Positions 14,611 to 30,560 of a stretch of DNA of 64,000 nt are shown here, in pieces. Each line of letters opens with the position of its first letter. Positions within the stretch are counted from its first letter, which is position 1. Below the pieces are notes generated by a model that saw only the letters and a list, made by a program, of their open reading frames with translations, was not told the origin of the DNA and did not search any database. This DNA comes from a virus. The stretch is from positions 62,001-126,000 of the IMG/VR virus record IMGVR_UViG_3300032288_004964; one strand, 5' to 3'. The position numbers and the translations under genes were made by a program.

Positions 14611-17600
14611 ATGGATAAGCAACTACTACAAGCTCTCGATAATCTATCTATCGCATTAGAGAAGATATCCGATACTCTAAATAAGAAGGATTCAAAATCA
14701 TCTACTGGGAAGGCTATGGAGAGTGGTAATTTTGGAGGTCAGCTAAAAGAGATAAGTAATGGTATTAAAAAATTGATATCTGATAATCAAAAAATTCTTA
14801 AGAATCAGGATACTATTATAGCTCTATCAAAGAAAAAAGAGTCTGATAAAAAGACTGGTGTTTTAGAAGAAGCGGGTGGTGATAAGAAGAAGGAAAGCAA
14901 TATTAAAAAAGGTGTTGGTACTATACTTTTAATTGCGGTTGCTGTTTTAGCAATTGGTATGGCATTTAAATTAGTTGGTAATGTAGACTTCTTATCGGTT
15001 GTTGGTCTGGCCTTAGCCATGACTCTTGTATCAATAGCTTTTGAAAAAATATCTAAGTTAAAAATATCTACAAAAGATGCACTTAACACTTCTTATGTTT
15101 TACTAATTATAGCTGGTGTTATAACAATATCATCTTGGATATTAGCCTTAGTTATACCTCTTAGTTTTGGTAAAGCACTAACCGCGATATTAATTGCTGG
15201 AGTGTTTACTATTTTATCATACGGATTAAAGAATATAATAACTGCTTTAAAGGGTGTTAATATATTTGCCTTAATGACAACTATGGAGTATTTACCATTT
15301 ATATTCTTTGCTTTATCAACCGCAATCGCTTTATCATCATATGTATTGGCATTGGTTTTACCACTTAGTTTTAGCAAGGCTATAACCGCTATTTTAATTG
15401 CGGCTGTATTTGCGGTAATATCTTATGGGTTGAAAAATATAATGACAGCTTTTAAAGGTGTTAAAATACTTGATATATTCGCAGCTGCTGAGTTTATACC
15501 TATGATATTTTTATCACTATCAACCGCTATAGCTTTGTCTTCATATGTATTAGCATTAGTTATGCCTATTGGACTTGGTCAGGCAATAACTGCTATTTTA
15601 ATTGCGGCTGTATTTGCGGTAATATCATATGGATTAAAAAATATAATGAAATCATTTGAAGGTATTTCGGTTGACTCAATAGCTGAAGCTATTGTTGCAA
15701 TACCATTTATATTTATAGGTCTTTCTTTTGCTATTGCTGCTTCATCTTGGTTATTAGCGATGGTTGTTCCTATAACATTTGCACAAGCTTTGACATCTAT
15801 AGCTATATCTGTTGTTTTTGTTGTCTTATCATTTGCAGCGTCTCTTATATTAAAGGCAATTAGTGGAATAAGCAATTCTAAGTTGATAGCAGCATCTATA
15901 ATAATGCCAATTTTATTCACTGCTATGTCACTTGCAATAATGGTTTCTTCATATTTACTTGCTCAGACACAGGAGATACCATTCATGAAATTACTTAGTA
16001 TTCTTGGACTAGCAGTGACCGTTGCTGTCGCTGCCGTGGTTCTTGGATTAGCAGCCATAATACTAAATAAATTAGGAGGGATAACAGATTATATAAAGGG
16101 TGGAATAGCAATACTTATAATATCTGCTACTATTATGGCAGCATCTTTAATTTTAAGTTATGGTACATATGATGAGGGTAAATATCCTAGCTGGGAATGG
16201 GCTCTTGGTGTTGGAATGAGTTTAGCCGCTTTTGGAATTGGTGCTGTTTTATTAGGAACACAAGTACTTAATCCTTTCTTCTATGCTGGGTTAGGTGTAA
16301 TTTTACTTGTATCTGCTACTATTCTTGCAACATCACTAATATTAGCTGAGGGTGAATATAATGAAAGTAAATTTCCATCAATGTCTTGGATGTTAGGTGC
16401 TACCGGAACTATATTAGCAATGTCTCTGGTGGCCGTTGCTATAGCATTCCTTTCACCTCTAATTGTACTTGGTTCTATTGCAATAATGACTGTTGCTCTA
16501 ACTATTATGTTAGTAGATAAAGCATTATCGGAAGGTAAATTCAAATCATATCCATCAGATAAATGGATGTTAGGTGCTGTTAAAACGATACTTGAAATGT
16601 CTATGGTGGCTGTAGCATTGGCTATCTTCACGCCTTTAATTATTTTAGGATCTATTGCTATAATGACATCAGCTTTAACTATAATGTTGATTGATAAAGT
16701 ATTTTCAGAGGGAAAATTTAAATCATATCCATCAGATAAATGGATGAGTGGATCTACTAAATCAATATTGAAGATTGCTATGATATCTGTTGGGTTGGCT
16801 TTCTTCCTTCCTTTAATTATTTTAGGAGCTATTTCAATATTATTAACAGCCGCAAGTATAAAAGAAGTTGATGATATACTTAGAGAAGGTGAGTATAAAA
16901 AATATCCATCAAAAGAATGGATTGATGGTGTCTCGGAAACACTAACAAAGTGGACGGGTCTAATGGATAATATTTCATTTGGAGATGTTGTCGGTGGTGC
17001 GATAGCTGACTTTTTTGGTGGTGGATTAGGTGACATAGCTGAGTCAATAGTATCAGTTGATAATATTCTAAAAACAGGAGATTATAAAACATATCCATCT
17101 AAACAATGGATAGACGGTGTGGGTCTTTCTTTAATGTCAATGAGTAGTATAATGGCCGGTGATTTAGAGGTTGATGACGATATACTTGGTGTTGCTGATA
17201 TGTTAGTTTTAATAGCAGCTAAGATAAAGGCTAATATTGCGGTATTCAATTCTAGTATTAATCCTGGTTTTATGAAATCAATAGCATCAAATATAACATC
17301 ATATGTTGAATTAGCTAAATATGTAGCTGGTAACTATCCAGGTCAAAAAGGTGGATTGGTTGGTGCTGTTCAGGGTATGTTATTTGGAGCAGATTCGACT
17401 CAAGATCCAATGGATAGAGTAGTTAATGGAATGGTTAAATTAGGAAATGCTTATGCTAAATTAAGTCAGTCTATACAGAATTTTGGTAATGCGATTAATG
17501 CTATTGATGCTGAGAAATTATCAGCTATTAAATCATTCACATCAAATGTAATTTTAATGTCTTTAATGGATCCTGATATGTTTGAGGACATGTTAGATAG

Positions 17601-17853
17601 ATTAGAGGATAAAGCAGGTGTATTTGTTGATGCTATAAATGAAATAGACTCGGATAAAGAGGATGTTAAAAAACCAGCAAGTGTTAATGCTGGCAAGGGA
17701 GCAAAAACACCACCAGATCCAAATCAACAAAAAATGATTCAGTTATTAACCGCTATGGATGCTAAGTTAGGTACAATTGCTAAAAACTCTGGAACATTAG
17801 CAGACTACACAAATGAGTTAAGAACATCTTCTGGTGTTAAAGTAAAAAAATAA
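14611..17853 (+). CDS. Repetitive multi-pass membrane protein, probable tape measure
   Basis: The protein is 1080 residues. The N-terminal about 105 residues are polar and helical (coiled-coil-like). Residues about 105-420 hold at least four repeats of a hydrophobic unit such as FFALSTAIALSSYVLAL followed by AITAILIAAVFAVISYGLKN. Residues about 500-840 hold about six copies of a second unit with the signature EGKFKSYPSDKWM, each followed by hydrophobic segments. The C-terminus is soluble and helical. Tape measure proteins of long-tailed phages combine coiled coils, repeats and membrane segments, and this is the best candidate here; T4 gp29 is shorter (about 590). An alternative is a phage inner-membrane protein. 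Confidence 0.5.
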   Translation: MDKQLLQALDNLSIALEKISDTLNKKDSKSSTGKAMESGNFGGQLKEISNGIKKLISDNQKILKNQDTIIALSKKKESDKKTGVLEEAGGDKKKESNIKKGVGTILLIAVAVLAIGMAFKLVGNVDFLSVVGLALAMTLVSIAFEKISKLKISTKDALNTSYVLLIIAGVITISSWILALVIPLSFGKALTAILIAGVFTILSYGLKNIITALKGVNIFALMTTMEYLPFIFFALSTAIALSSYVLALVLPLSFSKAITAILIAAVFAVISYGLKNIMTAFKGVKILDIFAAAEFIPMIFLSLSTAIALSSYVLALVMPIGLGQAITAILIAAVFAVISYGLKNIMKSFEGISVDSIAEAIVAIPFIFIGLSFAIAASSWLLAMVVPITFAQALTSIAISVVFVVLSFAASLILKAISGISNSKLIAASIIMPILFTAMSLAIMVSSYLLAQTQEIPFMKLLSILGLAVTVAVAAVVLGLAAIILNKLGGITDYIKGGIAILIISATIMAASLILSYGTYDEGKYPSWEWALGVGMSLAAFGIGAVLLGTQVLNPFFYAGLGVILLVSATILATSLILAEGEYNESKFPSMSWMLGATGTILAMSLVAVAIAFLSPLIVLGSIAIMTVALTIMLVDKALSEGKFKSYPSDKWMLGAVKTILEMSMVAVALAIFTPLIILGSIAIMTSALTIMLIDKVFSEGKFKSYPSDKWMSGSTKSILKIAMISVGLAFFLPLIILGAISILLTAASIKEVDDILREGEYKKYPSKEWIDGVSETLTKWTGLMDNISFGDVVGGAIADFFGGGLGDIAESIVSVDNILKTGDYKTYPSKQWIDGVGLSLMSMSSIMAGDLEVDDDILGVADMLVLIAAKIKANIAVFNSSINPGFMKSIASNITSYVELAKYVAGNYPGQKGGLVGAVQGMLFGADSTQDPMDRVVNGMVKLGNAYAKLSQSIQNFGNAINAIDAEKLSAIKSFTSNVILMSLMDPDMFEDMLDRLEDKAGVFVDAINEIDSDKEDVKKPASVNAGKGAKTPPDPNQQKMIQLLTAMDAKLGTIAKNSGTLADYTNELRTSSGVKVKK
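15382..15632 (+). repeat. Near-identical coding repeats in the membrane/tape-measure gene
   Basis: A stretch of about 47 bp (15382-15428) recurs at 15586-15632 with only about two differences, encoding ITAILIAAVFAVISYG both times. A second repeat family later in the gene (around 16525-16570 and 16715-16760) is also nearly identical over about 40 bp. This points to recent internal duplication or recombination. Confidence 0.8.
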
Positions 17854-17885
17854 TAAACAAATAATACTTATTTCATATAATTGAT

Positions 17886-18317
17886 ATGAAGAACATTTCT
17901 TTATTCAAGAAAATTAAACTTTTTAGAGAGTTTAAAAAGCAGATTAAAAACAGTAAAGAAGATTTAGAAAGAACTCTAAATATAAGAGTTGATAAGTCTT
18001 ATAGACTATACACTGTTTTAAACATACCTGAAGACTTGGTAGGTGAGGCTTATAGTCTTAAAAAATCCGATATTGATAGAATATCTGAAAATTTTACAAG
18101 AGAATATACACTTGGTGTGTCTAGATTTTTAGATACAAAGGGATTAAAAGAACTTTATGAGATATATGAGATTAGAAAAGTTGATAAATATTCTTATCTA
18201 ATTGTTATAGGATATTCTTTATTTAAAAGTAATAAGTATTATGATACTTTATATTATAGAGTTATACCTGGTGGTATTATACTTTCTATTATTTTATCTC
18301 TTATTTTACTACTATAA
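17886..18317 (+). CDS. Small membrane-anchored protein
   Basis: This 143-residue protein has a basic N-terminal amphipathic stretch (MKNISLFKKIKLFREFKKQI), a soluble middle and a C-terminal hydrophobic tail (PGGIILSIILSLILLL) that looks like a tail anchor. It follows the tape-measure-like gene by 32 nt. No family is recognised. Confidence 0.45.
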   Translation: MKNISLFKKIKLFREFKKQIKNSKEDLERTLNIRVDKSYRLYTVLNIPEDLVGEAYSLKKSDIDRISENFTREYTLGVSRFLDTKGLKELYEIYEIRKVDKYSYLIVIGYSLFKSNKYYDTLYYRVIPGGIILSIILSLILLL

Positions 18318-21254: not shown

Positions 21255-22211
21255 ATGAAAAAGATTTTATTTCTATGTGCTCAACCAGATGTACCTTATT
21301 TTCATTGGCAGGTTGAGGTTATGATTCATAACTTTATGAAAGTTGGAATAAATCCAAATCATATTGAGATTTTATTTTCATATGATTCATCTCCATCTAA
21401 TCAAGGCAGAGAACTAGCCAGTAGATATCCTTATGTTAGATTCTTCTTTTACAAAAGAACAATTTTAGATAATGGTGGTTATATACCTATACTTAGACCA
21501 GATATCATAGAACAACATTTTATGAGTTATCCAGAGTTATCTAATGAAACTATTTTTTATCATGATTCGGATATTGTATTCAGAGAACTTCCAGATTTTA
21601 ATTCTATGAATAATGATGATATATGGTACCTAAGTGATACTATATCTTATATATGTGCTGATTATATAAAATCTAAATCAACTGAATTATTTATTGAGAT
21701 GTGTAGAATATCCGATATTGATCCTCAATTAGTAGAATCAAATAATTCTAATTCAGGTGGTGCTCAGTATCTAATGAAAGGTGTTGATTCTGAATATTGG
21801 AGAGAAGTTAAAGAAAAGGCTTTAGCTTTATATAAATATATGTCTAATAGAGAAAACATTGAAAGAAGGTCATTAACACCTGAAAAACTAGTTAATTATA
21901 ATCCTATACAAAAATGGTGTGCTGATATGTGGGCTGTCCTATGGATGTCTCTAAAAAGAGGAAATAAAGTTCAAATATCCAAAGAGTTAAATTTTAGTTG
22001 GGGAACATCACCAATTTCCGATTATAATTCATGTAAGATATTTCATAATGCTGGTGTTACAACATCTAGTGGTGGTTTATTTTATAAAGGCGAGTTTATT
22101 AATAAGAATCCATTTGAAGAGGATCTTTCCTTTGTTAAAAAAGACACCGCATCTTTTAAATATGTAGAGGCAATTTTATATGCTAAAGATATGAGAAATA
22201 AGCCTTTATAG
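21255..22211 (+). CDS. Glycosyltransferase-like protein
   Basis: This 318-residue protein starts MKKILFLCAQPDVPYFHWQV and has the DxD-type motif FYHDSDIVF at about residue 103 in a GT-A-like context. C-terminal signatures (KWCADMWAVLWMS and CKIFHNAG) fit large-phage glycosyltransferases that act on protein or sugar acceptors. It starts 1 nt after the polymerase-like gene and opens the glycan locus that continues to 30125. Confidence 0.6.
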   Translation: MKKILFLCAQPDVPYFHWQVEVMIHNFMKVGINPNHIEILFSYDSSPSNQGRELASRYPYVRFFFYKRTILDNGGYIPILRPDIIEQHFMSYPELSNETIFYHDSDIVFRELPDFNSMNNDDIWYLSDTISYICADYIKSKSTELFIEMCRISDIDPQLVESNNSNSGGAQYLMKGVDSEYWREVKEKALALYKYMSNRENIERRSLTPEKLVNYNPIQKWCADMWAVLWMSLKRGNKVQISKELNFSWGTSPISDYNSCKIFHNAGVTTSSGGLFYKGEFINKNPFEEDLSFVKKDTASFKYVEAILYAKDMRNKPL

Positions 22212-22235
22212 TTTTTTAAATAAATATATACCTTT

Positions 22236-22385
22236 GTGAAAAGGTTTTATCTAAAATATAAACATGAGACTATAAATGTAGTTGATTTGAATACTTTAGA
22301 AGAAGCTATTTCCTATTTCAGTAAGATAAAAAAATTATCTGTAAGTAATTTGTTGAAAATCTATATTGTCACAGACCAACATTAG
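22236..22385 (+). CDS. Small protein starting at GTG
   Basis: This 49-residue reading frame (MKRFYLKYKHETINVVDLNT, then a helical basic tail) fills the otherwise empty interval between 22211 and 22404. AAATATATAC, a one-base variant of the late-type motif, ends 4 nt before the GTG, the same spacing as at other late genes. An in-frame TAA at 22221 excludes a longer protein. The composition looks coding, with charged and hydrophobic residues alternating as in helices. Confidence 0.45.
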   Translation: MKRFYLKYKHETINVVDLNTLEEAISYFSKIKKLSVSNLLKIYIVTDQH

Positions 22386-22390
22386 ACTTT

Positions 22391-22400
22391 TAATATATAC
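22391..22400 (+). promoter_or_regulatory. Late-type promoter motif TAATATATAC
   Basis: An exact copy ending 3 nt before the ATG at 22404. Confidence 0.5.
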
Positions 22401-22403
22401 ATA

Positions 22404-22940
22404 ATGAATCTTCAAGGTCAAAATATATCTTATGTTATTTTATCATCCGATAGATTAGATGATATGATTTCTATTCTTTATGCTAAAGAATATCAAGTAA
22501 TTCCGATTAAAGGATATTATAGGGGTCAATATGAGGATTCGGTTATGGCTTTTGGTATGGTTGATAATGATAATTTAAGAAAAGATGTTTTATTTTTATT
22601 AAATCATTTTCATCAGGATTGTGCGATTATAAAATACTTAGGTGAACCATCAGCTAGAAAGATTTTTAAAGATGGATCCGAAAAACCACTTGGTATAGTA
22701 ATGTATAATACCGATGCTGAGAATGTTTCTTACTTATACAATGGTCATTCATTCTCATTTATAGAACAAGTTAGATATTGGAAACCTACTAAGAAAGAAG
22801 ATTTCAGAGTGGGTATGATTGTTGAGTATTTTAATAAAGATAAATGGTATGAGAGATTAGTTGAGAATCCTCATGATGAGTATGAAAAACTTTATAAATT
22901 ACTTATAAAGTATGATAAAGTTAGAGTAGCCTCTAAATAA
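22404..22940 (+). CDS. Hypothetical late protein
   Basis: This 178-residue protein begins MNLQGQNISYVILSSDRLDD. It looks alpha/beta, with a possible Rossmann-like start (VMAFGMVDNDNLRKDVLFLL) and a C-terminal basic region. It has an exact late-type motif 3 nt upstream. It overlaps the converging gene by 8 nt. No family is recognised. Confidence 0.45.
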   Translation: MNLQGQNISYVILSSDRLDDMISILYAKEYQVIPIKGYYRGQYEDSVMAFGMVDNDNLRKDVLFLLNHFHQDCAIIKYLGEPSARKIFKDGSEKPLGIVMYNTDAENVSYLYNGHSFSFIEQVRYWKPTKKEDFRVGMIVEYFNKDKWYERLVENPHDEYEKLYKLLIKYDKVRVASK

Positions 22941-23721
22941 TCTCAAACCACTTTATACACCTTTCCCAAGACCCTGGAGTTTCTGACATAAAATAAGTAG
23001 AATCACTTATATTATTAATAACATTTAAACCTATTTCTGGTTTATTTATATTTCTCATCAATATAACCTTTTTAGGATTAATCAAATGAGATGGTATGAT
23101 ATCAATTCCTGATATATTACCAGTTACTGTTGTTCCATTATTTTGAATAGTAAATGTATTACTTTTCAATAAATACATATAAACATCTAAACCAACCAAC
23201 ATTGAATTAGCTGGTCCTATTCTGCTATCCATAGCAATCATACTATTCAACATCATTATCTTAGATACTATTTTTCTAAAATTAGAATTATCATTATCAT
23301 AACTTGATAAAGTAGGATCATTCTTAATAGTGACATTCATACTTTGATTATTAGATGAAGTCATTGGATTTAAAGTCAATGATTCTAGCTTTTTTACTAT
23401 ATCATAATAAAGTGATTGATTATCTATCAGTTTTTGAGATTTAACAGTCAAACTTTTCATTTGAGTTGATACAGACATTATATAACTTTCTTCTTCTAAT
23501 CCCCATTCATTTGACTCTTTTTCATTATTCCATTCATCAACTTTATTCTCAAGAATTGCGTCAATTGTTAAATCTCTTCTTTTACTTTTCAGAATATTTT
23601 TATAATCTTCTGTGTCAGAATAAACATATTCTAAATAGTAAATAATCCCGCTAGGTAAAGATGGTTTTGAATTTTCTGAGTAATTACAGACTTTTTCTAA
23701 ATCATATCGAGTAACTGTCAT
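22933..23721 (-). CDS. Protein with a gp23-like capsid signature
   Basis: This 262-residue protein's central segment FRKIVSKIMMLNSMIAMDSR is followed by IGPANSMLVGLDVYMYL. It resembles the 'IA..TRRG.GN....S.DV' core of T4-type major capsid proteins. The end has PKKVILMRNINKPEIGLNVI and a WFEI C-terminus. It is much shorter than gp23 (521 residues in T4) and lies inside the glycan locus, overlapping the upstream glycosyltransferase by 20 nt. It may be a diverged capsid-derived or head-decoration protein. The likeness is by eye only. Confidence 0.35.
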   Translation of the reverse strand: MTVTRYDLEKVCNYSENSKPSLPSGIIYYLEYVYSDTEDYKNILKSKRRDLTIDAILENKVDEWNNEKESNEWGLEEESYIMSVSTQMKSLTVKSQKLIDNQSLYYDIVKKLESLTLNPMTSSNNQSMNVTIKNDPTLSSYDNDNSNFRKIVSKIMMLNSMIAMDSRIGPANSMLVGLDVYMYLLKSNTFTIQNNGTTVTGNISGIDIIPSHLINPKKVILMRNINKPEIGLNVINNISDSTYFMSETPGSWERCIKWFEII

Positions 23722-24469
23722 ACTTATTCTTCATTCCATTTTTCTGAGCTTGTGCGTTAGACATCTTCATTATTTCATCTTTACTCATTGCTGATGTTTT
23801 TTGCAATAATTCTAGGTTTCTCTGATAGTATTTCATATCAGGTGCTGTTCTTGAATGATATAAGTGATAACATTTATTAGGAAGTTCAATCCAATTTAAG
23901 AAGTGTTTAACTTTTAGAGATACAAAATCATCTTCAGCTCCCCATCCAACGAATGATTCGTTCCATCCACCAATTCTCATGATGGCATCTTTTCTAAACA
24001 CACAGATACCACCACAAAGAGGAACCTTTTGATGGTCTAATTCGCCTCTACCAGGTCTATTAATTTGTAGTATTTGTTCAAATCTTAATCCAGATTCATT
24101 TTGGTCTAAATCAATAACTGATTTATATGGATTCACCATTTCATATTGTTCTATTGCTTTAAGAGATTCTATAAATTGATTAGGATCCATTATTAAATCA
24201 GAATCTGCAAAAACTATGATATTTGAGTTTGAGTTTTTAATTGCTACATTAAATCCCCAAGATTTATTATAAGGTAATGTTGATTTTAAGAAAATATGTT
24301 TAGCTTTAAGATTTAAGTGTGATATTTTTGAATGTTTATCTTGTTCAACTATAATAACTTCAGACCCGACAAATCCATTTACCCAGTCTAATGTTTTTCT
24401 TAGATTTTGTAATCTATCTGGTGAGTGTCTGTAACCTATTACATAAGTAAAAGCATGTGTATAATTCAT
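23702..24469 (-). CDS. Family 2-type glycosyltransferase
   Basis: This 255-residue protein has the GT-A fold markers: YVIGYRHSPDRLQNLRKTL at the start, FADSDLIMD (DxD, about residue 95) and a C-terminal GGWNESFVGWGAEDDFV, the galactosyltransferase-type (Glyco_transf_7C) signature. It should transfer a sugar from a nucleotide-sugar donor in the cytoplasm. The overlap with the downstream gene suggests they are expressed together. Confidence 0.8.
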   Translation of the reverse strand: MNYTHAFTYVIGYRHSPDRLQNLRKTLDWVNGFVGSEVIIVEQDKHSKISHLNLKAKHIFLKSTLPYNKSWGFNVAIKNSNSNIIVFADSDLIMDPNQFIESLKAIEQYEMVNPYKSVIDLDQNESGLRFEQILQINRPGRGELDHQKVPLCGGICVFRKDAIMRIGGWNESFVGWGAEDDFVSLKVKHFLNWIELPNKCYHLYHSRTAPDMKYYQRNLELLQKTSAMSKDEIMKMSNAQAQKNGMKNKYDSYSI

Positions 24470-24488
24470 TAATGATATTATTTTTTAA

Positions 24489-25217
24489 TTATACTATAGA
24501 TATGTTGATTTGTTTTGATTCTATAAACTTTTTCACATCTAACTTTCCACTTTTTTCAGAACTATAGAAATTAGACAATGGTAGTGTTTTATCATATCCA
24601 AGTAAATCCACAATTATATCATTATATAGCGATTCACCAAATTTAAGCCAAATGTTATAATCATAATTTGTCTCATGTGTTGTGTGATATATCAGTTCAT
24701 CTTTTATATGATATAGATTTAGACCATTTTTAACACAAGATATTGGAACCCAGTAGTCCCACCAAGGCATTCCAATTACATACTTGTCATTTTTAAAAAT
24801 GTTTGTATATTTAGAATCAAATATAAAGATATCATATCCATATATAAATGGATATTTTTTATCACCATCTAATTCATATCTAGTTCCTATAAAAACTCCA
24901 TTCTTTAGGTATCTTTTATTTATGTTAATTTCACTATCCTCTTTTAATTTAATATCTGAATTTATTATAGCAACTATACCTGATGATTTTTCTTCTATAG
25001 CTTCTAATATAGCGTCCAGCTTAATAAGTCTTTTATTTTTATAATTAAATGTATTATTCGTTTCTATAAATATTACATTAGGATATATATCTTTTATTTT
25101 TTCAATTTCTTCTTTTAGGTTAACTGAATAAACTTGATAATACTTAGACCAAGTATTAATTGAATGACTTTGAACTTCAAAGTTTCCATATGGATTTATT
25201 GTTGTAAATATTTTCAC
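24489..25217 (-). CDS. Glycosyltransferase-like protein, GTG start
   Basis: This 242-residue protein has AIINSDIKL in a DxD-like position (about residue 85) and MPWWDYWVPISCVKNGLNLY followed by HTTHETNY, features seen in phage and capsule glycosyltransferases. The start is GTG at 25217: the ATG just upstream is followed at once by a stop. GAATATATAATAT, a late-type motif variant, directly precedes the GTG. Confidence 0.6.
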   Translation of the reverse strand: MKIFTTINPYGNFEVQSHSINTWSKYYQVYSVNLKEEIEKIKDIYPNVIFIETNNTFNYKNKRLIKLDAILEAIEEKSSGIVAIINSDIKLKEDSEININKRYLKNGVFIGTRYELDGDKKYPFIYGYDIFIFDSKYTNIFKNDKYVIGMPWWDYWVPISCVKNGLNLYHIKDELIYHTTHETNYDYNIWLKFGESLYNDIIVDLLGYDKTLPLSNFYSSEKSGKLDVKKFIESKQINISIV

Positions 25218-25246
25218 ATATTATATATTCAAAGACTTCTTGTTTG

Positions 25247-25260
25247 TAATATATAAATAC
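25247..25260 (+). promoter_or_regulatory. Late-type promoter motif TAATATATAAATAC
   Basis: It ends directly at the ATG at 25261. It combines TAATATATA with TATAAATA, the T4 late promoter core. Confidence 0.45.
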
Positions 25261-25869
25261 ATGAATATTATTTCCTTTCCTAGAAGTGGACAACATTTGA
25301 TAGAGAGTGTATTAAGACACTTATGTTTACAACATAACATTGATTTTACTTACTGTGAATATTATGGTTGTTGTAATACAATTCCATGTTCAAAAGGATA
25401 TTTAGTTAGTAAAAACCATGATTTTTCCTTGAACTTAGAGATAAAAAAGGATGTTAAATACATTTTACTTTATAGATCTGATATGATATTACAACTAGAA
25501 TCTTATTATAGATTTGCGATTAGAAATAAAGATGTGGAATACAACTATAATGACCTATTAAACTTCATAAAATCTAATACTAACTATTATAATAAATTTT
25601 TAAAAAAATGGGTAGAAAACAGTTATGATAATATAGTTAAAGTAGAGTATTATGATTTTGTTAATTATCCTGTTAAATATTCTAAAATAATTTTTAATCA
25701 CTTTTTTCCAAATTGTGAAATAAAGGAAGATGTATTTAATGATTTACCTAATTTGTACCTATCTATACATAGAGGATTTAAATCAACTAATTTGAATAGC
25801 AAAATTCAAATTTTGAATAAAATGAATGATGATTTGTATAATAGAATAAAATTAGACTTAATCGACTAA
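25261..25869 (+). CDS. Sulfotransferase
   Basis: The protein has 202 residues from the ATG at 25261, chosen because the late-type motif occupies the bases just before it. The N-terminal SFPRSGQHLIESVLRHL matches the 5'-phosphosulfate-binding loop of PAPS-dependent sulfotransferases (x-P-[KR]-S-G-[TQ]-x). The segment ILLYRSDMILQLESYYRFAI matches the 3'-phosphate-binding motif (R and S). It should transfer sulfate from PAPS to a sugar or other hydroxyl. It lies in the glycan locus and converges on the methyltransferase gene with a 12-nt overlap. Sulfotransferases are uncommon in phage genomes. Confidence 0.7.
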   Translation: MNIISFPRSGQHLIESVLRHLCLQHNIDFTYCEYYGCCNTIPCSKGYLVSKNHDFSLNLEIKKDVKYILLYRSDMILQLESYYRFAIRNKDVEYNYNDLLNFIKSNTNYYNKFLKKWVENSYDNIVKVEYYDFVNYPVKYSKIIFNHFFPNCEIKEDVFNDLPNLYLSIHRGFKSTNLNSKIQILNKMNDDLYNRIKLDLID

Positions 25870-26430
25870 TTTTTGAAAAATACATTTTTTATATTCTATA
25901 TTAGTTTTCATATTTTCTTTTGTGAATTTATGAACAAATCCAGACTCTGAAAATTCACTAACCGGTTTATATTTTTTTGAAACTTCAGTATCTTCAAACA
26001 TAAAGTTTGAGTTGTATATCACAATAAACCCATCTTTATTTAATTTCTCATCTAACCGAATGATAATATCATTAAATTGATTAAAGTTATAAATATCAGT
26101 TGAGTTATTAATTGATGATGTATCTGGCCATCTACAAAGTACACTCATACAGAATATGATATCAAATTTTTCATCTGGTATAATATTTGATATTTTAATT
26201 CTATCTACATTTTTAGTATATTTTTTACTAGTTTTTATTGATTTTTCATCTACTTCAACTCCAAATATCTCAGAATTGCCAAAAAACATAGCTAGTGTTA
26301 CTAATTCTTCACCACTTGAGCTACCAAAGCTTAGAATCTTACAGTTATATTTCTTTCTATTATCATAACAAAATTTAAATATATCAGGGTATCTATTTAT
26401 ACCGGTAGTTGTCATTTTTTGATGTAACAT
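25858..26430 (-). CDS. SAM-dependent methyltransferase
   Basis: This 190-residue protein has a class I Rossmann methyltransferase pattern: ILSFGSSSGEELVTLAMFFG (motif I, glycines replaced by Ser), IFGVEVDEKSIKTSKKYT (acidic residue at the end of beta 2) and FDIIFCMSVLCRWP (motif IV region). In a glycan locus the likely acceptor is a sugar. It starts 1 nt after the upstream gene's stop codon in the same operon. Confidence 0.65.
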   Translation of the reverse strand: MLHQKMTTTGINRYPDIFKFCYDNRKKYNCKILSFGSSSGEELVTLAMFFGNSEIFGVEVDEKSIKTSKKYTKNVDRIKISNIIPDEKFDIIFCMSVLCRWPDTSSINNSTDIYNFNQFNDIIIRLDEKLNKDGFIVIYNSNFMFEDTEVSKKYKPVSEFSESGFVHKFTKENMKTNIEYKKCIFQKLVD

Positions 26431-26431
26431 A

Positions 26432-27052
26432 CTATTTATCTTTTAATATTTTTCTCATAGCTTCTGATTTAGTCATTGAATTATCTGAACAATGTTTAAA
26501 TGAGCAATGTATTAAACTTGATTCAATTGGAAAATCTTCTACTAAATTATATGATTTTATAAATTCATTTTTTTCGCTAATTAGATTCATCATAATAATC
26601 ATATCAGATGTATGTTTTTTTCCATTATAATCTATAAAATAATCTTGACCTCTTTCACAAAATATATTAAAGATATTACCATAATGTTCACTATTTCCAT
26701 AGACTAAACAAGGAACATGTCCTTGTAATATAGAAAGTGACTCATACTTAATAGCATCATTTGGAGTAAAACCATTGTTTACTACGTCATAATCCGACAT
26801 CCAACCTCCACCTATCTGACTCATAGCTTTCCACCTTATATAACAAGTTATTTCATAATCTATGTTATTTACAGTTGGTATTTTATAGATTAAGTTATAC
26901 TCTTCATCTGTTATCAACACATCTTTTTTTGTGAGAACAATTGGCTCCCATCCAAATTTAATCCAGGAACATTTCCATAAGTCTATTAACTCTTCTTGAT
27001 TTGATCCATTATTAATAAAATCAATATTTTCATAAAATGTATATACTTTCAT
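26432..27052 (-). CDS. Glycosyltransferase with GGWMSDYDVV motif (GT32/capsular type)
   Basis: In this 206-residue protein, YIRWKAMSQIGGGWMSDYDV (about residues 73-92) is the GG-x-Y/W-x-D-x-D pattern of OCH1-like/GT32 and related capsule sugar transferases. It overlaps the upstream gene's stop by 4 nt (ATGA), indicating coupling. Confidence 0.65.
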   Translation of the reverse strand: MKVYTFYENIDFINNGSNQEELIDLWKCSWIKFGWEPIVLTKKDVLITDEEYNLIYKIPTVNNIDYEITCYIRWKAMSQIGGGWMSDYDVVNNGFTPNDAIKYESLSILQGHVPCLVYGNSEHYGNIFNIFCERGQDYFIDYNGKKHTSDMIIMMNLISEKNEFIKSYNLVEDFPIESSLIHCSFKHCSDNSMTKSEAMRKILKDK

Positions 27053-28035
27053 AATTTATCAATTATTTTTTCATAAGAGTTATATTCAAAGTTTAAATTA
27101 GATTTTAACATGAACTTCTCTATTTTATCTAACATTGATGCTTTTAAATGATTGAATTTATCAATATCTTTATTCTCAAATACCTCATAATTTATTTGAT
27201 TATTTGAATATTTTGATATATCATAAAAGTTTTTAAATAAATTGGACAATCCTTTTAGTCTCCAGTCTCCTTCCCACCAAATAAATATAACAGGTGTATC
27301 AAGAGCTAAACAAGGAAGAGCCGTGTGTAGTCTTGATGTTATTACTAAATCCGCACTATTATATTCATCTAGCAATTTTACACAAGTTTCCATAGAGTCT
27401 TTGTATGTTCCCTCTCTTAACTCATATATATCATGGTCTGTGAAGATTGCATTATCTAATATATTTTTAGGTATTCTTCCCTTCATATTATTGTAATATT
27501 GATCACTTGGTATTTCATAGATAAAGTCTTTTTTAAATTTATTTAAATTGTCTTTACCCATTTGACTAACTGGTCCGTCTCCATTCCACATTCTATCTAA
27601 TTCATTTATAATTATCTTACCTGTTTTATTTTTTGGCTTATTAGATTTTAATAATAATGTTAAACAAGATGAAAAATATGAGTTTGTGTTGATTTCTTTT
27701 AACTTTTCATATGAATTAATATCTCTTAATCCAACTTCATTTGTTTTAAAAAAATTAGGCATTTCATCAAAACATTTAGGTTGTAAGTTTACTGATATAG
27801 GTAATATGTTTCTCATATTTTCTAAATATGAGAAATCACCAACAGCTGTATTTGTCCACCCATTGTATATCATGAAACTTTTCTCATCATATTTAAAAAT
27901 ATCATTAGTCCTATCTAACCTACCATTGTCTCTGTTTATTGTATGTGTCACTTCTGGATAGAACTGTAGTGTTGCTAATGATTGAATCCAATCACCCGCG
28001 TTTATTGAGCTGTAATCTAAAGAATAATAATTCAT
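27049..28035 (-). CDS. Polysaccharide pyruvyl transferase-like protein
   Basis: This 328-residue protein starts MNYYSLDYSSINAGDWIQSL (the N-x-GD pattern of the family). The C-terminal half has ADLVITSRLHTALPCLALDT followed by PVIFIW, the hallmark SRLHTALP box. These enzymes add pyruvate ketals to sugars, giving acidic glycans. It is coupled to its neighbours on both sides by 4-nt overlaps. Confidence 0.75.
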   Translation of the reverse strand: MNYYSLDYSSINAGDWIQSLATLQFYPEVTHTINRDNGRLDRTNDIFKYDEKSFMIYNGWTNTAVGDFSYLENMRNILPISVNLQPKCFDEMPNFFKTNEVGLRDINSYEKLKEINTNSYFSSCLTLLLKSNKPKNKTGKIIINELDRMWNGDGPVSQMGKDNLNKFKKDFIYEIPSDQYYNNMKGRIPKNILDNAIFTDHDIYELREGTYKDSMETCVKLLDEYNSADLVITSRLHTALPCLALDTPVIFIWWEGDWRLKGLSNLFKNFYDISKYSNNQINYEVFENKDIDKFNHLKASMLDKIEKFMLKSNLNFEYNSYEKIIDKL

Positions 28036-30125
28036 TTATCTAATAATATTTTTTTATCATATGTCTTTTCCATCCAGTCTTTTCCGGTAAATTTAAAATT
28101 AGGAGACTTTTCTGACATCCAATTATAAGCTATTTTTATATTTTTAATATTTGTTTCTGAAAACATATTTTCTTTTTTTTGCCAATATGATTCATGTTTT
28201 TCGTGATATGATACATTGGGTGTTTCACAGACTAATCCTTGTTTTTCAAATTGTTGTTTGAAAACTATATCTCCTTCTATACTTTTACCCATTGTTATTC
28301 TAAAAATCCAATCCCAACTAGGTCTACCTATTATTTGACCATCTGGTATATAGTCTCTCCATTCCCTCCACCATGATTTAGTTACTGCGAACAAATCAGC
28401 ACCTTTTGGATGATCACCACAATCTGACCATTTAGCTAACTCTACTTCCTCTTTACTCATTTCTCTTTCTAACTTAAATGGGAAGTCTTTTCTAAATGAA
28501 AATGTACACTTCCACCTATTACAAGATTCTACTATTTTTTCATATAAATCATCTGTTAAACATATATCACAATTAGTGTACATGACTATATCATTATCAT
28601 TTTGGCACATATTATATCCATAATCAAACAAATCTTTTATCATTGGTATCTCTAAATCATCTATCCTGTTATATCTTAAACAAGGAATAATTTTTTTATT
28701 TTCATATAATTTTTTCCAAGTTTTCTGTGCAAATTCTATTCTTTTATTGGTTTCAACATCATATGATTTGTACAAGGATGATACATGATATATAAATTGT
28801 TGACAATCTTCTATATCAGATTCCATATCCGTTTTTAATTTCTCTCCAAAAAACAAAATATCACTTAAAGATTCTAAAACATTCTTATGAGATTGACTAT
28901 GAAATAACTCATAGAATTCAGAATCTGATAAAAACCTATCTGTCTTTCTTCCTTTCCAGTTTTTATAAGCATCTCCTAAGTGTATAACTGACTTCTCAAA
29001 CTTACCTCTTTTTGTAAATTTGTCTCTAAATTGTAAATCACTCCATGCAGCATCATCTGAAAACTCAGGAAATGGTAATTCCTTATTAATATTTGAATTG
29101 TTAATATTAAATAGTTGGAAAAATCCTAATCCTTTATTTATTTCATATTTTCCTAATTTTTCTATTTCTATTTTACCTTCTTCCCAATCTCTATAAGTAT
29201 TATAATCTTTACATATATACCTATCTGATGTGTATAATAAATCAATATCAGTATCAATATTTATTTTTTGAGTTATTATGATATCAGCATCTAATAGTAA
29301 AATCCAATCTGGATTTTCAATTGATTTTATACCATCATTTATAGCTTTTCCTTTATTAAAAGTAGCTCCATTTTCATACATTCTATCTGTGACCACACAT
29401 TTAACTCCAAACTTATCACATATTTTTTGACACATTAAATCATCAGCTGATGTTACTACTGTTATGTCCTCAAAATATTTAATATTATTACTTAAAGAGA
29501 GTAATAAGTAATCATTATAGTTAACTGAGACTATAATAACAGATATTTTATTAATTTCATTTATTGGATTTACTACAATTGATTCTATACTATTTGATAT
29601 AGTTCTTCTAGATACCGGCTTTGAAACCTTAACCATTACTGATTCTTTATCTGGATTTATATTAGGTCTTTTATTTATAACATTAATATCTAATGTTATT
29701 TTATTAGAAATTATAGAATCTATTACATTAACATTATCTTCTATTTTAGAACTTGAATTGAATATTAATGCGTCTAGTGAATTTTTATTTTCTTTTCCAT
29801 TAAATTTTGAATTTACATAAATTAAATTTTCAATTAGGTTAATTTTATTAACTTTAAATAAACTATTATCAAATTTTGCAAACTTATTTGCCCATATTAT
29901 AGTTTTATTTGGATATATTTTATGTACAGCCTTTAGTAGCTCTATATCAGTACCTTTGTTTTCAAAAACAACAACTTTATTTTTATTTAAATTAAAATAT
30001 GGAAAATTAACAAAGATGATTATTCTAGATATCAATGAATTGGATATATTATAATCCAGTGAGTTTATAAATTCTGGTCCAAAATCATCAAATTCTTTTT
30101 CTGTTAATTTAATTACAAGTATCAT
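28032..30125 (-). CDS. Large two-domain glycosyltransferase
   Basis: This 697-residue protein has an N-terminal 190 residues without a clear domain. Residues about 195-400 are a GT2 domain: ISVIIVSVNYNDYLLLSLSN, GKAINDGIKS, then ILLLDADIII (DxD). The C-terminal half has a second nucleotide-sugar-like region with IVMYTNCDICLTDDLYEKIV. It is the first gene of the minus-strand glycan operon running down to 25858. The divergent retropepsin gene shares the 30-nt promoter gap, which holds GTTATATATAAAG. Confidence 0.7.
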   Translation of the reverse strand: MILVIKLTEKEFDDFGPEFINSLDYNISNSLISRIIIFVNFPYFNLNKNKVVVFENKGTDIELLKAVHKIYPNKTIIWANKFAKFDNSLFKVNKINLIENLIYVNSKFNGKENKNSLDALIFNSSSKIEDNVNVIDSIISNKITLDINVINKRPNINPDKESVMVKVSKPVSRRTISNSIESIVVNPINEINKISVIIVSVNYNDYLLLSLSNNIKYFEDITVVTSADDLMCQKICDKFGVKCVVTDRMYENGATFNKGKAINDGIKSIENPDWILLLDADIIITQKINIDTDIDLLYTSDRYICKDYNTYRDWEEGKIEIEKLGKYEINKGLGFFQLFNINNSNINKELPFPEFSDDAAWSDLQFRDKFTKRGKFEKSVIHLGDAYKNWKGRKTDRFLSDSEFYELFHSQSHKNVLESLSDILFFGEKLKTDMESDIEDCQQFIYHVSSLYKSYDVETNKRIEFAQKTWKKLYENKKIIPCLRYNRIDDLEIPMIKDLFDYGYNMCQNDNDIVMYTNCDICLTDDLYEKIVESCNRWKCTFSFRKDFPFKLEREMSKEEVELAKWSDCGDHPKGADLFAVTKSWWREWRDYIPDGQIIGRPSWDWIFRITMGKSIEGDIVFKQQFEKQGLVCETPNVSYHEKHESYWQKKENMFSETNIKNIKIAYNWMSEKSPNFKFTGKDWMEKTYDKKILLDK

Positions 30126-30155: not shown

Positions 30156-30560
30156 ATGAAAAAAACTATAGGCAGATGTGAAAAAATTTCACTTGTGGAT
30201 TTAGGATTAGATTCTAAGGCTAAAATAGACACAGGTGCTTATTCAACCGTTATTCATGTTGATGGTGTTAAAGTTATAGATAATAAATTGCAATTTTGGA
30301 TTGGTGATAAATCAAACAAATTTACTTTTTATGATTATAAAAAAATAACAGTAAGAAGTTCCTTTGGAAAAAAACAAAAAAGATACAGTATTTTAACTAG
30401 ATTAAAAGTAGGTAATAAAGTTTATAAAATTTATGTATCTTTAACAGATAGAAAAAAAATGAAATATCCAATATTAATAGGTAGAAGATTTCTCCATAAG
30501 TTTGGATATATTGTTGATGTAACAAAGAAAAATATTTATGATACCACTAAAAAGGTGTAA
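30156..30560 (+). CDS. Retropepsin-like aspartic protease, RimB type (PF05618-like)
   Basis: This 134-residue protein has AKIDTGAYSTVIH (residues about 24-36), carrying the retroviral-type D-T-G-A active site, and YPILIGRRFLHKFGYIVDVT near the C-terminus, which fits the conserved 'PILLGRRFL...DVS' of the RimB/RloA2-like family. The enzyme would act as a dimer. Cellular relatives usually work with ATP-grasp amino-acid ligases of the RimK type, but none is visible here. A virion-protein or host-peptide target is possible. Confidence 0.7.
   Translation: MKKTIGRCEKISLVDLGLDSKAKIDTGAYSTVIHVDGVKVIDNKLQFWIGDKSNKFTFYDYKKITVRSSFGKKQKRYSILTRLKVGNKVYKIYVSLTDRKKMKYPILIGRRFLHKFGYIVDVTKKNIYDTTKKV

Follow-up and report, generated by a model that had tools for sequence, protein, structure and literature searches.

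An exchangeable gene cassette that may build a short acidic glycan in a very large phage

The window analysed here is a 64,000-nucleotide stretch of viral DNA (positions 62001-126000 of the 385,333-base record IMGVR_UViG_3300032288_004964), and the subject of this report is a glycan locus in its interval 21255-30125, which contains ten open reading frames (ORFs). With slightly better than even confidence, the locus is read as an exchangeable accessory cassette for making a short acidic glycan, which would vary from strain to strain and would most likely be attached to virion proteins. In the infected cell, glycosyltransferases would link a few sugars supplied as nucleotide sugars, a sulfotransferase would add sulfate from 3′-phosphoadenosine-5′-phosphosulfate (PAPS), and a pyruvyl transferase-like protein and a methyltransferase would cap the chain; this order of reactions is presumed, and the product would be both sulfated and pyruvylated. 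At least part of the PAPS would come from the phage's own adenosine-5′-phosphosulfate (APS) kinase, and attachment of the glycan to a virion protein (fibres or capsid) would make the coat of the particle differ between close relatives. The gene content of the locus, its swap and deletion in relatives, the APS kinase and the linkage of two further sulfotransferases to fibre genes are read from the sequence, and the sulfotransferase of the locus is recognised by its fold.

A separate 104-kb contig, probably from the same virus population, carries the locus at 100% identity, and two altered forms occur in close relatives. In the first relative (L004, which comes from a different data set) both ends are kept, but the pyruvyl transferase family protein, one glycosyltransferase and the methyltransferase are exchanged for three other genes; the replaced stretch also carries a diverged sulfotransferase gene that is inline, the window copy being inverted. 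Protein identity between the window and L004 falls toward the centre: it is 94% for the GT2-type glycosyltransferase, 79% for the glycosyltransferase with a GTG start, 72% for the 697-amino-acid protein and 53% for the sulfotransferase. The second relative (L024) lacks the core, and at its junction the start and first six codons of the gene for the 697-amino-acid protein are joined to a tail of about 11 nucleotides from the GTG-start gene. This scar keeps the ends of both genes and therefore records a deletion, since an insertion would not have had pre-existing ends to preserve. Both relatives retain the phrog_4417 gene and the GT2 protein (94-95% identity to the window copy). The swapped centre in L004 and the loss in L024 indicate that the core is dispensable and exchangeable, as a variable and non-essential surface trait would be, and the full, centre-swapped and deleted close relatives amount to a natural experiment on the effects of such a coat.

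Within about 9 kb, the locus encodes one clear GT2-type glycosyltransferase, four more probable glycosyltransferases, a polysaccharide pyruvyl transferase (PS_pyruv_trans) family protein, a class I methyltransferase and a sulfotransferase (Table 1). A preliminary description of this DNA had given the coordinates and gene packing correctly, and had named a pyruvyl transferase-like enzyme and a methyltransferase, both of which are borne out by Pfam family models. Its "several 4-nt overlaps" hold as tight packing, but the junctions are in fact two 4-nucleotide overlaps (27049-27052 and 28032-28035), a 1-nucleotide gap and a 20-nucleotide overlap, all on the minus strand; the first three of these join the genes for the 697-amino-acid protein, the pyruvyl transferase family protein, the glycosyltransferase with the GT32-like motif and the methyltransferase. 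The pyruvyl transferase family protein is the sole PF04230 copy in the 385-kb genome and belongs, over nearly its full length, to the same Pfam family as CsaB, ExoV and WcaK; its match to CsaB itself is weak (E 0.05) and far below the CsaB cut-off, and pyruvate transfer by this protein is predicted only at the family level. No relative of it was found in 50,697 records of isolated phages, and a PDB sequence search gave nothing useful. The methyltransferase weakly matches a pseudaminic acid-associated methylase, well below the cut-off of that model.

The PAPS-type sulfotransferase of the preliminary description is confirmed by predicted fold and by FPRSG and K-N-H motifs, the protein having no Pfam or PHROG family match above the curated cut-off. 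An AlphaFold model built on four sequences (pLDDT 77, pTM 0.77) matches PAPS sulfotransferases in the PDB with a Foldseek E of about 2e-4, and re-alignment gave the best Z, 14.2, against SULT1C1 (rmsd 3.1, 181 of 209 residues); each of the 50 PDB re-alignment rows listed is a PAPS sulfotransferase or a protein of related fold, for example retinol dehydratase. In the model the PAPS sulfotransferase fold extends along the whole length of the protein, which confirms the assignment at the level of predicted structure. The motifs FPRSGQHL and K-N-H-D are retained in three distant relatives of 35-53% identity, one of which has FLRSGQHL instead of the former, and across the four sequences the 5′-phosphosulfate loop SF[P/L]RSGQHL and the catalytic KNHD (K-x-H) are invariant or nearly so; R79, the candidate 3′-phosphate-binding Arg, is invariant across the aligned relatives. 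The ATG at 25261 matches the relatives better as a start than the TTG at 25240. Sub-threshold family likeness appears in two of the relatives, to PF13469 in the L004 copy (E 0.003) and to PF00685 in that of a T4-like phage, L027 (E 0.02). No relative was found in isolated phages or in a bacterial genome scan, and the PDB sequence search was of no use, the only match being a designed repeat protein. A relative in an unrelated GC-rich phage sits among fibre-like genes with PTPTPTAT repeats. A cysteine-rich stretch, YCEYYGCCNTIPC (window 25350-25400), is characteristic of this sulfotransferase family and could be a metal site or form disulfides. The L027 relative lies in a glycosyltransferase island between uvsX- and uvsW-like genes (L027:5253-12572), which also holds a second sulfotransferase of another family (PF03567, 5e-8).

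With regard to the rest of the genome, a gp23-type capsid protein, UvsX-like, glutamine synthetase-like, DnaK-like and DnaJ-like proteins and Bacteroidota-type signal peptides were recognised by eye, and the phage is probably a very large freshwater, T4-related jumbo phage of Bacteroidota. Two further sulfotransferases match Sulfotransfer_3 (2e-20 and 1e-12), and each directly follows a gene called GT9-like here, a reading made by eye because no Pfam family matched. Both pairs lie behind virion or fibre genes, and those preceding the second pair have PHROG matches to tail fibre and virion structural families (2.8e-17 and 1.3e-39). Adjoining the second pair, on the opposite strand, is the small operon with the APS kinase gene. 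No PAPS reductase was found when the genome was searched for one, and the APS kinase therefore seems not to belong to an assimilatory sulfate reduction pathway. A second glycan cluster of 17 kb (record 287389-304173) encodes a UDP-galactopyranose mutase (1.8e-78), a fucosyltransferase, a tandem nucleotidyltransferase, a class II aldolase, a PRK-like kinase domain, GT61 and GT32 proteins and an FkbM-like methyltransferase; the mutase, fucosyltransferase and nucleotidyltransferase indicate that the phage carries out glycan work on a large scale. The preliminary description had proposed a small acidic glycan, sulfated or pyruvylated. Most of that chemistry holds up, and the phage APS kinase strengthens it: sulfation is well supported by this kinase and the two further sulfotransferases, and pyruvylation stands only at the family level. 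Elsewhere in the record, large ORFs at 216908-221551 and 355752-360264 carry Bacteroidota-type signal peptides, and their products look secreted or surface-located.

The arrangement of a GT9-like gene and a sulfotransferase gene recurs in other phages. A search of IMG/VR with a GT9-like alignment gave 306 relatives, of which the best 80 loci were kept and fell into 52 lineages at 95% identity, so that the fractions given here describe close relatives and not all phages. A sulfotransferase is encoded within the locus in 41 of the 52 lineages, and in 36 it starts no more than 20 nucleotides after the end of the GT9-like gene. An APS-kinase-like gene accompanies 15 of the 41 lineages with a sulfotransferase (three that were scored gave 55, 56 and 73 bits against a Pfam cut-off of 21), and DUF2061 is present in 16 lineages. 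Upstream sequence was sufficient in 36 lineages, and in 26 of these a Gly/Ser/Thr-rich ORF of at least 350 amino acids ends no more than 3 kb upstream; the baseline in the phage's own genome is 12 such ORFs among 89 of that length. In a marine member of the Kyanoviridae (L038:5007-9573), a fibre-like gene is followed by genes for a 2-oxoglutarate-Fe(II) oxygenase, a sulfotransferase, a GT9-like protein (55% identity to that of the jumbo phage) and a carbamoyltransferase. The GT9-like family had no relative in the bacterial genome scan, and relatives of the APS kinase are rare among isolated phages, with five records that are mostly unannotated and include one bacterial contig. These observations raise, tentatively, the broader proposal that many aquatic phages make sulfated glycoprotein fibres by means of a glycosyltransferase, a sulfotransferase, a small APS kinase for PAPS and a DUF2061 membrane protein, and that the jumbo phage has two such pairs together with a swappable cassette that varies the outer sugar and acidic caps between strains. 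Where fibre-linked sulfotransferases occur, in several lineages with a PAPS-making kinase, the direct and testable reading is sulfation of virion parts.

For the acceptor of the cassette's glycan, the preliminary description had offered virion proteins, modified DNA or the host surface. The first fits the gene context circumstantially, and virion proteins (tail fibres or capsid) are the most likely acceptor. The phrog_4417 family is a large phage family without annotated function in PHROGs, with relatives of the window protein in 74 phage records, and in five of the six regions read these relatives adjoin capsid, major tail or fibre genes (the sixth is unannotated): directly or one gene after the major capsid gene in phi9183 and iLp84, after the major tail gene in phiFL1C and PMBT8, and beside a tail-fibre gene in Chryseobacterium phage MA9V-3. 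Thr runs and collagen-like Gly-Ser/Thr repeats, both plausible O-glycan acceptors, occur in fibre-like ORFs of the phage itself.

A doubtful but serious alternative is that the glycan is placed on the host surface (capsule, lipopolysaccharide or lipooligosaccharide, or S-layer glycoprotein), where it would block superinfection or alter adsorption while the particle stays unmodified. Bacterial surface-polysaccharide loci commonly encode pyruvyl transferases, methyltransferases and sulfotransferases, the PF04230 protein has its weak likeness to CsaB, and the variability of the cassette fits this alternative too. Set against it, the genome's other sulfotransferases are tied to fibre genes, and hydrophobic or transmembrane segments are absent from every protein encoded in the locus and in the second glycan cluster; neither cluster encodes a flippase, polymerase, GtrA or undecaprenyl-phosphate transferase-like membrane protein, and a lipid-linked (undecaprenol) host polymer is disfavoured for that reason.

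It is improbable that these are passenger sugar genes in a hypervariable region, without a coordinated product. The deletion of the core in L024, the replacement of its centre in L004 and the inverted sulfotransferase gene would suit such a view, but all ORFs are intact and overlap tightly, the identical locus recurs in the separate contig, and long open frames are kept in relatives at 53-94% protein identity.

With regard to DNA as acceptor, the single thymidylate-synthase-family gene in the 385 kb carries the canonical LPFNIASY motif; in this family Asn marks thymidylate synthase, and Asp at that position marks dCMP hydroxymethylase. We know of no sulfated or pyruvylated DNA. Decoration of hypermodified phage DNA, which would protect it from restriction or CRISPR nucleases, is quite improbable because the only gene of this family looks canonical, and a search for Tet/JBP dioxygenases, made without a positive control, found no match, even though phage glycosyltransferases can put diverse sugars on modified bases (Pyle et al. 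2024, as cited in PMC12619734).

Several points weigh against an acidic glycan made by the cassette for virion proteins. The preliminary description counted five or so glycosyltransferases, of which the GT2 protein is upheld by a family model and the other four are predicted from a motif, a weak match or membership of a family of unknown function. PF04230 members are functionally diverse, which weakens the case for pyruvylation. In the sulfotransferase, the Ser of the 3′-PAPS site, eight residues after R79, is not conserved, and the protein is not a close relative of the fibre-linked sulfotransferases of the same genome. The window locus itself does not adjoin structural genes, and a virion-protein acceptor is proposed from gene context.

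Table 1. Features of the glycan locus and of the sulfation-related genes elsewhere in the genome. Positions are those of the window unless marked as record positions; E values and bit scores refer to the named family models.
Feature	Position	Strand	Evidence and remarks
phrog_4417 protein, probable GT-A-like glycosyltransferase	21255..22211	+	PHROG E 4.9e-71; glycosyltransferase reading from sequence motif only; outside the exchangeable core
Conserved 178-amino-acid protein	22404..22940	+	very weak S-adenosylmethionine (SAM) lyase likeness, Pfam PF23780 E 0.004, below cut-off
262-amino-acid protein, weak likeness to T4 gp23 (capsid)	22933..23721	-	Pfam Gp23 4.3e-5, 23.5 bits against cut-off 24.4
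GT2-type glycosyltransferase (galactosyltransferase-like, GT2/GT7C)	23702..24469	-	Pfam PF02709 1e-8 (above cut-off), PF00535 1.4e-6, phrog_1721 2e-17
Probable GT-A-like glycosyltransferase, GTG start	24489..25217	-	NSD motif after hydrophobic strand; no family match above cut-off
Deletable core, 5.6 kb	24516..30107		absent from L024, which aligns on both sides
PAPS-dependent sulfotransferase	25261..25869 (ORF from 25240)	+	predicted fold and motifs; inverted relative to neighbouring genes
Centre of core, replaced in L004 by three different genes	25858..28035	-	window-L004 alignment breaks at 25233, resumes at 28035
Class I SAM-dependent methyltransferase	25858..26430	-	Pfam Methyltransf_31 1.3e-7, Methyltransf_11 2.4e-5, both above cut-off
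Probable glycosyltransferase	26432..27052	-	GT32-like GGGWMSDYDVV motif only; no family match
Polysaccharide pyruvyl transferase family protein	27049..28035	-	Pfam PF04230 4.2e-13, 50.3 bits against cut-off 25.3, profile positions 1-278 of 280
697-amino-acid protein, probably two GT-A-like domains	28032..30125	-	phrog_1721 E 0.006 at residues 235-296, DAD motif at 279
First GT9-like and Sulfotransfer_3 pair	record 16340-18046		behind virion or fibre genes
Second GT9-like and Sulfotransfer_3 pair	record 177314-178998		behind fibre/virion structural genes
APS kinase (Pfam 2e-65), cytidylyltransferase-like protein, DUF2061 membrane protein; small operon	record 179531-180768		opposite strand, adjoining second pair

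Attempts to tie the GTG-start protein, the protein with the GT32-like motif and the 697-amino-acid protein to known glycosyltransferases failed. The last of these has, by eye, a second D-containing strand motif near residue 520; it had no match in isolated phages, and a PDB sequence search gave nothing useful. A comparison of the GTG-start protein with its second domain gave no support for a relationship, and a GT32 assignment of the protein with that motif is unsupported, BLAST giving no link to the genome's own GT32 gene. The DNA of the whole locus had no match in phages, and BLAST found no paralogues of its genes elsewhere in the genome. T4-type late promoters, TATAAATA, considered as a sign of late expression, are not enriched. 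Two proteins inside the interval have no visible glycan-gene character. For the 178-amino-acid protein, a SAM lyase reading was rejected because its relatives show nothing of the kind, the PF23780 likeness being missing in an 89%-identical relative and in L024. The gene of the gp23-like protein overlaps the GT2 gene by 20 nucleotides and is conserved in all relatives, including the one without the core; its product and the phage's own major capsid protein have a common R-I/V-G-P-A stretch (hhalign p 0.006, probability 6%). A capsid identity was not upheld, the Gp23 match being sub-threshold in the window copy and absent from the L004 and L024 copies, and the predicted structure is unusable (pLDDT 30). 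Directly adjoining the cassette, window 30156-30560 encodes a retropepsin-like protein of the 'ATP-dependent zinc protease' family (PF05618, 1.6e-17).

Phage virion glycosylation and stray phage sulfotransferases are already known. No description was found, in the literature that could be searched, of a phage glycan pathway that includes its own step of sulfate activation, is associated with fibres and is paired with a deletable and exchangeable acid-glycan cassette; most subscription journals lie outside that literature, and this is therefore only weak evidence of novelty. If present, a negatively charged and variable coat could alter how the particle adsorbs, how stable it is or how it diffuses.

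Mycobacteriophage glycosyltransferases modify virion proteins of the capsid and tail tube (Freeman et al. 2023, as cited in PMC12619734). The phrog_4417 relatives resemble that system in also neighbouring capsid or tail genes, whereas the window locus, described here from its genes, is of greater size, varies between relatives and does not adjoin capsid genes. To our knowledge, no sulfotransferase, pyruvyl transferase or APS kinase belongs to the mycobacteriophage system. In type the phage resembles the moraphages, a T4-related group of jumbo phages that infect freshwater Bacteroidota and have four glycosyltransferase orthogroups among their widely shared genes as well as variable islands (PMC12619734); like them it is low in GC and has, by eye, glutamine synthetase-, DnaK- and DnaJ-like ORFs. 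That paper makes no mention of sulfotransferases or pyruvyl transferases. The Sulfotransfer_3 proteins of Synechococcus phages S-SKS1, S-SCSM1 and S-SRM01 and of OM43 phage genomes belong to the same superfamily as the two fibre-linked sulfotransferases (27-31% identity), the window sulfotransferase being of a separate, short family; in the marine phages they are isolated genes whose function in phage genomes "remains unclear" (PMC10580990). Here, in contrast, the GT9-like and sulfotransferase genes stand next to fibre genes with an APS kinase gene close by, and phage sulfotransferases, usually listed as stray metabolic genes, are found beside fibre genes across tens of lineages.

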